Assembly: GCA_031282525.1 (NCBI GenBank)
Contig: JAITDN010000003.1
Location: 62,001-126,000, forward strand
Direction: 5' to 3'
Length of the DNA: 64,000 bases
DNA from: Candidatus Endomicrobiellum basalitermitum
GTDB taxonomy: Bacteria; Elusimicrobiota; Endomicrobiia; Endomicrobiales; Endomicrobiaceae
Part shown: piece by piece, positions 6,734 to 64,000 of the stretch
Layout of the letters: each line of letters opens with the position of its first letter
How positions within the stretch are numbered: position 1 is the stretch's first letter
The notes under the pieces: generated by a model
The model's input: the letters and a program-made list of their open reading frames with translations, nothing else
Database searches by the model: none
Told to the model about the DNA's origin: nothing
Made by a program: the position numbers and the translations under genes

Positions 6734-7801
6734 TTATTTTTTTGTATTCTTATATAATTTTTTTTCCTTTACAATTTTGTCTTCCATCTCTTCCTCTTTT
6801 TTATCAATTACTCCCAAAGTTTTCTCCCTTACTCTCATTTCTATATCTTCAGCGATTATAGGGTTTTCAGATAAATATGTTTTTACATTATCTCTACCTT
6901 GTCCAAGTTTTTCATTTTTATAACTAAAAAATGCTCCTGTTCTCTCAATTATTCCACAATCTATACCCATATCTATCAAGTACCCGAGTTTATCAATACC
7001 TTGTCCGAATATTATTTCAAACTCAGCTTGTTTAAACGGCGCTGCAACTTTATTTTTTACAACTTTGACTCTTACTCTATTACCTAAAATCTCATCACCT
7101 TTTTTAACAGATTCAATCCTTCTTATATCTAATCTCACTGAAGAATAAAATTTGAGTGCGAGCCCACCTGGAGTTATTTCAGGATTTCCCCACATTACGC
7201 CTATTTTTTGTCTTAACTGATTTATAAATATTATTGAAGTTCTAGATTTAGAAATATTTGATGTAAGTTTTCTGAGAGCTTGACTCATAAGTCTTGCCTG
7301 AAGACCTAAAAAAGAATCTCCTATCTCTCCTTCAATTTCAGCTTTAGGAACAAGAGCCGCTACAGAATCAACAATTATAATATCAACTGCCCCTGAACGT
7401 ACAAGCTTATCAGCAATTTCTAGGCCTTGTTCACCTGAATCTGGTTGCGATATTAAAAGATTGTCTATGCGTACACCAAGCTTTTGAGCATATTCAGGAT
7501 CCATTGCATGTTCAGCATCAATATACGCTGCAATACCACCTACTTTTTGTGCTTCAGCAACCATACACAAAGCTAAAGTCGTCTTACCTGATGCTTCAGG
7601 ACCATAAATCTCAACTATTCTACCACGTGGAATCCCACCTATACCTATAGCTACATCAAGAGGCAAAGCACCGGTTGATATTGAATCAACTTTTTCCTTC
7701 AAACGCTCATCACCAAGTCTCATAATCGCCTCTTTCCCAAAATCTTTCTCAATTTGTGAAAGAGCTAAATCTAATGCTCTAAGCTTCTCATCTTTTACCA
7801 T
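6734..7801 (-). CDS. recA: Recombinase RecA
   Basis: 355 aa; [10 protein letters not shown] Walker [33 protein letters not shown]. Confidence 0.98.
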
Positions 7802-7802
7802 A

Positions 7803-7812
7803 CCCCCCCCCC
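7803..7812 (-). repeat. G10 homopolymer (C10 on + strand) immediately upstream of recA ATG
   Basis: Direct reading: tacccccccccc at 7801-7812; reverse strand GAGGTAAGTGATGGGGGGGGGGTATGGTAAAAGATGAG. Confidence 0.95.
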
Positions 7813-7926
7813 ATCACTTACCTCATTTAATAACAACTTTCTCTTTGCATAAATTCCTATAAAATACTTCTACTTTAATCAACACCAAACATATTATCCT
7901 CAAAACTATTGAACTCTAATCTAAAA

Positions 7927-9383
7927 TCACCTGCTCACAACGTTAATAAGAAATTGATGTATATGAACCATTGCTAAAGTATCCATAGCGCAATACTTTA
8001 GTAAATTATATTTTGTTTGTTCTATTTTTTTATTATTATATACTCCGATTGTCATAAAGGCAAAAGCAGCAACAGCATCTCGACCATTCCTTATTTTTAA
8101 GTGAGAATAGTTCAGTTCCGGAACCAATACTGGAAGAACTTTTTTTATAGATGAACAGCCATGAAAATTTATGTTGTAATAATTTTCTCTGATAATCAGT
8201 TCTATATCTACTATCCTTTTAACTATTTTATAAAGTTTTTCAGATAAATCAGGGAAAATATCTATGAGTTTTAAAATAACGTTACGTTCAAAATTGGCAT
8301 AGGTTATTATACTACCTTCTAAATCTAGATATTCAATAAATTTTTCCGTAATCTCACGTCTACAGTCTTTTTTGGGATCAACAATATACTCTCATAATGA
8401 TCTAAAATATTTCCTGCTATGTCAGTTTTATCTATTGAGAACTGAGTTAAGAACTGTGTATGAGGACCAATATATTCACATAAGGGTATTGCCGCCATAC
8501 TCACTGATTCAAAATCGAGATAATAAAAAGGCTGTTTTATACTGTGAATATGCGTTTCTAAATTTTCTGAAATGTAATTTATACCCGTCAAAACACAATT
8601 TTTAACTATTTTTTGAACTTTAGTAAGTTCAAAATCAGATGGGATTTTGCAAATCGTATCAACTCCCAAAGTTATTAATTTTTCAATTGAAGTAGTTGAA
8701 AGACGTGGTAGATCAAATATATGATTTTTCACACTTTTACCTATACAAGTGTTAAATACAAGACAATTTTTGCAATTTTTCTTTAGATAAGGTTCCGGCA
8801 TGTTTTTTGATTTAATAACTTCAAAAATTTCATCTGAAAGATTTAAAAACTCATTGGTTTTTAATTCAACTTTCTCAGTACAATCTAATACTTTAAAAAA
8901 TTTTGATACGTCCATACCAAAACGATAATCATTAGACAAGTAAAGGAGGAGATATTTTTGTACGTTCACACTAGCTTTAGCCAAAACCATTGCATCAAAA
9001 GATATATCATTAATATATTTAAATTTATACTTAGTAGCAGATTTAACTTCAAACAAAGATAGTAAATTATTATCACACTTTTTGAGTACGTCAACTTTTG
9101 CTAAATAAGCATCCGCAACAAAAGAAGCTTCACAAATAGTTTTAACATTTGGATTAAGTATCAATTCTTTAGTATATAACGCCCCAATATCAGTTTTTGA
9201 TCCCCACGCACTTATAGCATTTGAAAAAAAATGCTGAGACATTTTCTTAATAATTTTTCTTTCAAATTTTAAAAACCTATTATTAACTCTCCTGGATTTT
9301 AGAATCATATTTCTTTTTGTCATCCAACCTAGAGTAGGACAACGCAAATAATTAATAAAAATCGTTTTATTTATATATTTCAT
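7927..9383 (-). pseudogene. DUF2779-type dual nuclease (Cas4-like PD-(D/E)XK + DEDD exonuclease-like), split into two ORFs by a -1 (or +2) frameshift near 8367-8392
   Basis: ORF 8325..9383 carries N-terminal Cys, ...AKVDVL...FEVKSA... (PD-(D/E)XK-like), CKNCLVFNTC, then YLDFES. The same protein continues in the -1 frame: KKDCRREITEKFIEYLDLEGSIITYANFERNVILKLIDIFPDLSEKLYKIVKRIVDIELIIRENYYNINFHGCSSIKKVLPVLVPELNYSHLKIRNGRDAVAAFAF...YCAMDTLAMV to 7927. Confidence 0.75.
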
Positions 9384-10166
9384 AGGTAATTTAAAAAAAA
9401 GTAAATGATTAAAGAAATTATTTTTTACAATAAATATATGTCAGACATAATCAAGAGTATTTAGAAAAAAAGGATTATAAGTCCGAATATTATAGAATTA
9501 CTTTGTTATATCATTCTGTCGCAAAGTTTTTATTTTAAACTAAGTTTCACATAATAAAAATAATTAACTTGACACTGGTATTATATCAAAATCAAAATAA
9601 TTATTTTAAGTAATTACACTTAAGTTGAAGTTTTTTTATAAAAATTAAATTTAAAACAAAATTTACAATTACAAGATCATAATCAAGTGCGGAATCTTTC
9701 TACATTTTAGATTTTATTGTATAATTCTGTTCATTAAGCTTTTATAATCTAAAAGTATTATTAAACATAGAGTAAAAAAGGTGTGAAGTTATGTTATCAA
9801 AATTCACTGATTGGGTAAAACCTCTTCAAGACGTAGAAGTTCAAATAAAAAGCTAAAAATAAATTGCAAAAGCTATATAAAAATGTTTTCCGGTAAGTAG
9901 CAAAAGCACTTTTATATTAATTTTGACTAGTGAAGAAGCAATTAAATAGTAGATATCATTAACTTTTCTCAAAAAATGTATTATGATGTTCATAATAAAA
10001 AGGGGAGAGTTTTTCATAAGAAGATTTTCACAAATTCTATTCTAGCAAACAAAAAAATTTATGGATTAGGATTAAATTTAACGTTTCATATTTCAGCCGT
10101 ATATTTTGTACAATAGTGGAGGTATATTTTTTTAGATTATGGTGACGATATGTCACAAAGAGAGGA

Positions 10167-11279
10167 ATGATGAAAAAAAGTACAATGATTTTATTATGGT
10201 TGGTAGTAGTGGTATTAACAACTACTATTAGTATGAGTAAAACTGTATTCGCATCAGATAATCTTACAGAAGAATTACAAACCAATATTTCTGCAAAGGG
10301 AACATTTATTTTGCAAGCGATGACTACTGAAAAATCCAACAACAGTTATAGCGGACTTTACAACACGTACACAACAAACTTAGAGATTTCAAAAGAACTT
10401 AAAGACAATGCTAAAATCACAGTAAATCTTAAAGGTGGCATGAGTAATTATACAATTGATAGGAACGATTTGGCATATACAGCTATAAACAAAAATGCTA
10501 ATTCAAAAGATTTGTACATTGAAGTTATATACCATCATGAATCATTTTTTTGCAATAGACTTAATATAGATCTTGGTAAATTTGGTATTAGTAAACATTT
10601 TGACAAAAATAGTTATGCAGATGATACATCTACTCAATTTTTAACAGGATCCTTTGTCTCCAATGGAACAATTGAAAGTCTTGGTGACAGGTTAGGTTTA
10701 AGAGCAAATTACGCACTTGATAGATTTGACATTGATTATGGTTATTTTAGTTCGATAAATAACACATTTGATAATAATGGATTTAATATTTTACAAATAA
10801 ATTATAAACCTTCTAAAAAAGAAAATTATAGAATTTATGGATGGATGGATAATAGAAAAAAAGATTTTATTTTAAAAGAAAACAAGCCTAAACAAAAATC
10901 AAAAACTTTTGGGATGGGCGTAAGTTTAGATCGTGAAATAAATAAACAAATTGCTATATTTGCTAGATTTGGATATAAAAATCCTTACATTCAAACAAAA
11001 TCACCATCGTTACTTTGGAGTGGTGGGACACAGATCAAGGGTTCACTATTGTCAAGAACAAACGATACAATAGGATTAGCAATAGGCCAAATATATGCAT
11101 CCAATTTTACTAAAAAATATAGTAACAAACACCCAGAGACACAAATAGAATTGTATTACAAACTTGTAATAAGTGATAATCTTGCCATTTCTCCAGTATT
11201 ACAATGTGCTGTACATCCTAAAGGTAAAACTAGAGAAAATCTATTTATTTACGGTATAAGAACTCATTTTAAATTTTAA
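10167..11279 (+). CDS. Putative OprB-like (carbohydrate-selective) outer-membrane porin
   Basis: 370 aa with signal peptide; amphipathic repeats; C-terminal GLAIGQIYASNF...PETQIELYYKLVISDNLAISPVLQ...FKF resembling OprB C-termini, ends in aromatic residue. Confidence 0.7.
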   Translation: MMKKSTMILLWLVVVVLTTTISMSKTVFASDNLTEELQTNISAKGTFILQAMTTEKSNNSYSGLYNTYTTNLEISKELKDNAKITVNLKGGMSNYTIDRNDLAYTAINKNANSKDLYIEVIYHHESFFCNRLNIDLGKFGISKHFDKNSYADDTSTQFLTGSFVSNGTIESLGDRLGLRANYALDRFDIDYGYFSSINNTFDNNGFNILQINYKPSKKENYRIYGWMDNRKKDFILKENKPKQKSKTFGMGVSLDREINKQIAIFARFGYKNPYIQTKSPSLLWSGGTQIKGSLLSRTNDTIGLAIGQIYASNFTKKYSNKHPETQIELYYKLVISDNLAISPVLQCAVHPKGKTRENLFIYGIRTHFKF

Positions 11280-37902: not shown

Positions 37903-38230
37903 CTTAAACTTTCTATCATATCATGAAGCTCTGTATCTCGTTCCTTAATATATCCTTAAAAATCAACATAAAACATATATTCCCATACTTTTTTTGGTGT
38001 TGAGAGATTCAATCTCCATTAAATTTACATTACTTTTATTAAAAACTTCTAATGTACTATTTATATAAAATACCTACATCGTCTTTAATTGTAAAGACAA
38101 ACTTGTTTTATCTTGACCAATTAGTTTTGTTAAAACTTCTCAAACAACAAAAAAAATCTCGTAAAATTTTCTCTAGATTTCTGTACACCTTTTTACAAAA
38201 TATACAAGGTCATATCAACATCAGAATAAT
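37903..38230 (-). pseudogene. pheA: Relic of prephenate dehydratase (pheA), ACT-domain end still readable
   Basis: No long ORF; reverse-strand fragments in different frames: SRENFTRFF, VFTIKDDVGILYK, STLEVFNKSNVNLMEIES, KKVWEYMFYVDF*GYIKERDTELHDMIESLRC*; same order as PDT (N.TRF ... f...d.pGaLy..L..f....iNLt.IESRP ... weY.FfvDf.GH). Confidence 0.75.
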
Positions 38231-38463
38231 TTCTACTTTGAGCTAAAGCAAACAGATGTTAATACACTCTTACAATTTTAATCTTAAGACCCTTAACAGA
38301 AAAACATTATTCTATTTTCAAACTTACTTAAGGCACCATATTTTAAGTTCATTAAAATTTAAAAAAATCTCTAAACTAAAATTACGAATTGTCGTCTGAT
38401 GAGTAAATATTATATAGGAATCTAAAAATAAAGTTTTTATATGAATTCTTTTTTATTTTCTTT

Positions 38464-62664: not shown

Positions 62665-63777
62665 TTGCTATTTAATAACATGCTAAAAAAACTACATTTA
62701 TATATTATTAAAGAATTTTTAGGCTATTTCTTTTTTGGCCTCGCTGTTTTCTCCATTTTTTTTCTTTTAAACAATTTGTTTGATTTTATAAATCTTTTTT
62801 TTTCAAGAGGAGTTCCTCCTTTTTTAATTCTTAAATTATTTATCCTTACTGTTCCAAAGATTTTAATGTCAACAATACCAATGGCTGTACTTCTAGGTAT
62901 ACTAACATCTTATGGAAGATTAGCGGAAGATAATGAAGTAACAGCGATGAAATCTTCTGGAATAAACTATAAAACATTGACAATACCAATAATAGTCTTA
63001 GTTTGTACAATATTTATTTTTCTTTTACTCTGTAATCATTTTATAACACCATCAGCAACTTCAAACTTTAGAAATCTTTATAAAGAAATTATTATAAAGA
63101 GACCTCTTTCAAGACTGACAGAAAAAACAATAAACGAAATAGGAGAGTACAGTTTATATGCAAATAAAGTAAATCATAAAGATAATACTCTTTCAGGAAT
63201 TAGCATATATAAATTTGGAAACGAATATGCTTCAACAAAAACTTATCGCATATACGCGTCATCAGCCATAATCAAACCTTATCCAAACGCCATTAAAATC
63301 ACTCTCTACAATGGATACTTACTACATGCACACCCTTCAGATATGAACAATATGATGCACATTACTTTTAAGTCCTACTGTTTTTTTATAAAATTAAACA
63401 ATGAAATTAAAGACGATAATTTGCTTATACTTGGCATGTCTTCTCCAAAAATCATTAAAACCATAAAAATCTGTAAAGAATCATGTATCCCATATAAAAA
63501 GTATGAAATTGAATTATGGATAAGATGGGTTTTCGCATTTGCCTCAATTGCATTTAGTTTTGTCGCATTACCCATAGGAATAATGGCGGGAAAGGGCGGG
63601 AAAGGTATAGGTTTCGGAATTAGTTTAGGTATCATCCTGATTTACTATCTGTTAACTATACTTGCAATAGACTTAAGTGAAGAAAAATATATGCCAACAA
63701 GTCTAGTAATGTGGTTTCCAAATATTATTATTACAATACTTGGAATTTATCTGCTTATAAAAATGAGAAAAAGATAA
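62665..63777 (+). CDS. lptF: LptF/LptG family (YjgP/YjgQ) LPS export permease
   Basis: 370 aa; LHLYIIKEFLGYFFFGLAVFSIFFLLNNLFDFINLFFSRGVP...TVPKILMSTIPMAVLLGILTSYGRLAEDNEVTAMKSSGINY. Confidence 0.88.
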   Translation: MLFNNMLKKLHLYIIKEFLGYFFFGLAVFSIFFLLNNLFDFINLFFSRGVPPFLILKLFILTVPKILMSTIPMAVLLGILTSYGRLAEDNEVTAMKSSGINYKTLTIPIIVLVCTIFIFLLLCNHFITPSATSNFRNLYKEIIIKRPLSRLTEKTINEIGEYSLYANKVNHKDNTLSGISIYKFGNEYASTKTYRIYASSAIIKPYPNAIKITLYNGYLLHAHPSDMNNMMHITFKSYCFFIKLNNEIKDDNLLILGMSSPKIIKTIKICKESCIPYKKYEIELWIRWVFAFASIAFSFVALPIGIMAGKGGKGIGFGISLGIILIYYLLTILAIDLSEEKYMPTSLVMWFPNIIITILGIYLLIKMRKR

Positions 63778-63779
63778 TA

Positions 63780-64000
63780 ATGAAAATTTTTTATAGATAT
63801 ATTGTCAAGAACTTTGCAAAAATTTTTATATTTATATCACTAGTGTTTATACTAATAGGGATAACATCTGAACTACTTAGACAAAAGGAATTTTATATGG
63901 AATATAAAACTCCTTTTTATTTGATATTACTGCATTTGATTTTAAATGTCCCACGCTGGTTCATGCAAGCTCTTCCTATAATTACCCTCATAGCTTTATT
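63780..64000 (+). CDS. lptG: Second LptF/LptG family permease, N-terminal part (runs off window)
   Basis: MKIFYRYIVKNFAKIFIFISLVFILIGITSELLRQKEFYMEYKTPFYLILLHLILNVPRWFMQALPIITLIALL; tandem with preceding lptF-like gene. Confidence 0.75.
   Translation, partial: MKIFYRYIVKNFAKIFIFISLVFILIGITSELLRQKEFYMEYKTPFYLILLHLILNVPRWFMQALPIITLIAL

Follow-up and report, generated by a model that had tools for sequence, protein, structure and literature searches.

We found that a putative two-domain nuclease gene, lying on the chromosome upstream of recA in a genome-reduced termite-gut endosymbiont of the Endomicrobium/Endomicrobiellum group, is interrupted by an AG insertion relative to its intact relatives. 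The best reading, at a probability of about 75%, is that the gene is a young pseudogene that has only begun to decay, and that the slippery heptamer close to the break is incidental to the true reading frame. The insertion itself is observed in alignments. It would be a recent AG duplication, probably made by replication slippage, that shifted the last third of the gene out of frame. The likely product is a protein of 352 residues with a Cas4-like domain and motif I, predicted to lack the exonuclease motifs II and III. The gene would then have just entered the decay that it undergoes in other reduced genomes of the genus, and any -1 slip at A_AAA_AAG would be leakage and not a programmed event. 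On this reading, the loss is ordinary erosion in a shrinking genome.

The window, the whole 64,000-nt stretch of DNA that was analysed, is part of a 719-kb draft genome in four contigs (84% complete, G+C about 30%). The features of the locus are as follows.

9383 to 7927, minus strand: the whole nuclease gene in both frames, a Cas4-like nuclease fused to a DUF2779 RNase H-like exonuclease
8325..9383, minus strand: N-terminal open frame, 352 aa to a TAG stop, its last 21 residues out of frame
7927..8391, minus strand: C-terminal open frame in -1 phase, 154 codons, TGA at 7927-7929
9324-9344, minus strand: RCPTLGW with Cys15, candidate fourth cysteine, from the sequence
8745..8783, minus strand: KKNCKNCLVFNTC, three cysteines (CxxCx5C), from the sequence
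8505..8522, minus strand: YLDFES, DEDD motif I-like, from sequence and alignment
8490..8504, minus strand: stretch GTGAGTATGGCGGCA adjoining motif I, with an in-frame 3-nt insertion seen in the alignments in this species only
8389..8393, minus strand: GAGAG, where the two bases AG are inserted, from a DNA alignment with four relatives, the protein alignment and the codon listing
8367..8373, minus strand: A_AAA_AAG heptamer, read CCA AAA AAG in frame 0 and lying in the phase of a -1 slip
8284-8304, minus strand: TYANFER, candidate motif II, in the C-terminal frame
7978-7995, minus strand: YCAMDT, candidate motif III, in the C-terminal frame
6734..7801, minus strand: recA, the next gene downstream, from the ORF list, in the same order in the sister genome

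The split into an open frame at 8325..9383 and a remainder in the -1 frame had been proposed in an initial annotation, and both frames are present as described. In Pfam searches, the N-terminal frame contains a Cas4-like PD-(D/E)XK nuclease domain (Cas_Cas4, E 6e-5; PF01930, 23.6 bits, barely above the cut-off of 22.7) and motif I of DUF2779, an RNase H-like domain of which it matches positions 1-45 of 126 (E 1.7e-6). The C-terminal frame, whose translation runs EYIVDPKKDCRREITEKF...KYCAMDTLAMVHIHQFLINVVSR, matches positions 48-126 of 126 (E 5.6e-15). Thus the two frames, which overlap by 67 nt, cover complementary portions of PF11074. The intact protein of the sister species matches DUF2779 completely (positions 1-126) and has the same Cas4-like match; bit scores for the intact homologue are 102.7 with DUF2779 and 31.3 with Cas_Cas4. 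The four cysteines expected for a Cas4-like domain (C15 and CxxCx5C) are present in the sequence, C15 as the candidate fourth, and from general knowledge of Cas4/AddB we take those of KKNCKNCLVFNTC to belong to a Cas4-type Fe-S cluster. The PADLOC matches of the gene are to Cas4 models only, and we do not call it CRISPR-associated. A search of solved structures with the intact sister protein as query gave no match, and an Rfam scan of 7500-10500 gave no RNA element. Judging from its domains and the gene order, the protein may be a nuclease in DNA processing, perhaps acting with RecA.

The same pair of domains in the same order is published for proteins in which DUF2779 (PF11074, RNase H-like family F.17) follows an N-terminal DUF83/Cas4-like domain; within the RNase H-like superfamily, DUF2779 belongs to the clade of 3'-5' exonucleases, the activity being presumed (PMC3985635). 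Both domains of this Cas4/DUF83-DUF2779 group were found here, but unlike the published proteins, the gene is frame-broken inside DUF2779. A separate start for the C-terminal half was considered and rejected, because the first standard start codon, TTG at 8127, comes after motif II.

We then investigated the break itself. Alignment with intact homologs, proposed in the initial annotation as the way to place the indel, revealed a clean insertion: relatives have CAT TAT GA(A/G) TAT where this gene has CAT TAT GAGAG TAT, in the context CAT TAT GAG(AG) TAT ATT. The suspected origin in an AG duplication is therefore correct, although GAGAG had been placed at about 8388-8392 and is found at 8389-8393, one base off. 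The duplication lies 15 bases upstream of a run of six A residues. If the insertion were an error of assembly or consensus, or an allele carried by a minority of the sampled population, the gene of the species would in truth be intact; the draft state of the assembly and the lack of relaxed selection described below would agree with this. However, a two-base insertion is unlike a typical homopolymer error, and in a comparison of the window with the contig of the sister species, the gene order is shared and nearly all other genes are full length. We regard such an artefact or allele as quite improbable. Elsewhere in the exonuclease domain (8149-8169, minus strand), the gene encodes NFHGC where nearly all relatives have R or K in the last position (NFHGR), a possible mark of early decay.

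A survey of 42 genomes of the genus placed the lesion in context. The gene was matched in 33 of them, being open in 28 and broken in five, this one included. The 28 open copies are uninterrupted reading frames of about 480-500 codons; the break site could be aligned in 24 of these genomes, and the remaining four were judged by the length of the open frame. The closest relative, 'Ca. Endomicrobiellum mastotermitis' (G014, 76% protein identity), has an intact gene in the same position upstream of recA. The other broken copies carry different, independent lesions, which supports the reading of the gene as a pseudogene. The G001 copy has a single frameshift close to its C-terminus, at a run of A8 (L017), and the G031 copy a single one close to its N-terminus, at a run of A10 (L037:3001-3330), the rest of each gene being open. 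In G027 and G062 the gene is decayed, with many stops. No match was obtained in nine of the 42 genomes, several of them very incomplete; in G007, G028 and G029, recA is present with no DUF2779 sequence within its 1.5-kb flanks. The gene is intact in all 21 genomes of at least 1.0 Mb and in four of the 12 smaller genomes that are at least 75% complete, a difference (p = 4e-5) to be taken only as a guide, the genome sizes being rounded and the species not independent. The case appears to be one step of erosion: within a single symbiont genus, independent losses of a conserved nuclease gene that lies upstream of recA recur as the genomes become smaller.

Substitutions on this branch were counted against five outgroups. 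Before the break, 30.5 nonsynonymous (N) to 37.5 synonymous (S) substitutions were obtained, and after it 10 N to 16 S; on the branch of the sister, the N:S counts are 47:29 before the break site and 20:14 after it. Omega after the break is 0.16-0.21, similar to the 0.20-0.28 of the N-terminal part, and the C-terminal part also resembles the intact sister. For the C-terminal part, neutral evolution is rejected whether it is assumed along the entire branch (P = 0.0001) or along half its length (P about 0.005-0.013). The data allow a break at any point within the final 20-30% of the branch, and a constraint-free period of the C-terminal part, if any, would have been shorter than some 30-50% of the branch length. 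No relaxed selection after the lesion is seen on this branch, which counts against a pseudogene; it may be so because the break is young or because the full-length protein is still expressed at a low level, and the test only bounds the age of the break. The out-of-frame C-terminal part apparently still shows purifying selection, so either the lesion is recent or the C-terminal part is still in use.

The overlap of the two frames contains, as the initial annotation had pointed out, an A_AAA_AAG heptamer phased to rejoin the parts. A check of the phase indicated that a -1 slip at 8367-8373 would lead on into the C-terminal frame; a +1 slip of RNA polymerase on the A6 run would also restore the frame. 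In the true frame the heptamer reads AAA AAA G, two lysines ahead of Asp. Judged by the long ORFs of the window, 0.015 in-phase A_AAA_AAG are expected per 23 codons. AAA AAA G occurs 40 times in 18,063 codons (about 0.05 expected per overlap), and for any X_XXY_YYZ heptamer in slip phase the expectation is about 0.37 per overlap. Given these expectations, the heptamer is mildly unusual and not compelling. It is not kept as a signal among the relatives, which have ACA AAA G, ACT AGA G and similar sequences in its place. The site reads CAA AAA AAG G in the sister, whose intact gene has A_AAA_AAG in phase at a point where slipping would be harmful; in G025 the letters AAAAAAG occur in a different phase. 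The RNA 3' of the heptamer folds no better than shuffled sequences (z = +0.3 to +2.0), in line with the earlier remark that a strong downstream stem-loop is lacking. The dnaX gene of this genome contains three AAAAAAG, none in slip phase. The slippery sequence near the break is most likely incidental.

Heptamer and phase are identical to those of E. coli dnaX, in which a stimulatory stem-loop and a Shine-Dalgarno-like element accompany a frameshift that truncates the product. In contrast, the gene here has neither stimulatory stem-loop nor conservation, has only a weak upstream GAGAG where dnaX has its Shine-Dalgarno-like element, and would yield a longer product through the shift. A programmed -1 frameshift yielding both an N-terminal nuclease and a two-nuclease form would accord with the phase of the heptamer, but is hardly credible. 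This candidate was refuted, because none of the 28 intact congeners has the break, the heptamer lacks conservation as a signal, structure is at chance level and dnaX has no in-phase heptamer. Conservation of the break and heptamer, which the initial annotation had suggested checking, was not borne out by the comparison with congeners. Among the three readings offered there, a young break is supported by the relatives and a conserved programmed switch is ruled out by them.

The gene might instead be rescued, a little full-length protein being made by -1 ribosomal slippage or by the +1 slip of RNA polymerase on the A6 run, with selection keeping the C-terminal part. The phase and position of the heptamer, the conserved C-terminal part and the otherwise open G001 and G031 copies fit this explanation, as does the poly(A) slippage known in insect endosymbionts, which reaches 12-50% of transcripts at long runs (PMC5009743; see also PMC3017870). 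However, a run of six A is short beside the documented long runs, the AG lesion sits outside it, and folding gives no structure 3' of the heptamer. In a rescued product, moreover, SILLIP would replace YIVDP at a conserved position of the exonuclease domain. On sequence grounds, such rescue is possible but unsupported, and we consider it unlikely.

Frameshifted genes with poly(A) tracts are described in Blochmannia and Buchnera (Tamas et al. 2008, via PMC3017870). As far as the account in PMC3017870 goes, the gene here is like those cases in its AT-rich reduced symbiont genome, single frame break and conserved downstream part, and unlike them in that an AG has been duplicated ahead of a short A6 run; the copies of G001 and G031 fit the published pattern better. 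These two copies are candidates for rescue by poly(A) transcriptional slippage. A wider proposal is that symbiont Cas4-DUF2779 genes are kept at a low dose by slippage across differing breaks (AG/A6, A8, A10), the breaks being tolerated since leaky decoding or transcription would give enough exonuclease; we find this joint proposal very doubtful. If slippage rescue were true, the Blochmannia/Buchnera phenomenon would reach termite-gut symbionts of another phylum.

Elsewhere in the window, we observed a run of ten G (7803-7812; C10 on the plus strand, G10 on the minus strand) directly upstream of the recA start, at the Shine-Dalgarno position. The corresponding tract is GGAGGAAG in the sister, G6 in G027 and G-rich in other relatives; since it differs among them, it could tune RecA translation or be prone to slippage. 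At 38145-38327 (minus strand) lies the remnant of a decayed gene, spread over two frames and interrupted by several stops. Its counterpart in the sister is a 188-aa ORF, whose product, judged by its sequence, resembles the C-terminal portion of a prephenate dehydratase, ACT domain included. Near the window edge (62665-63998, plus strand), the alignment with the sister runs in two frames at the junction of two adjacent ORFs, which are probably two overlapping genes.
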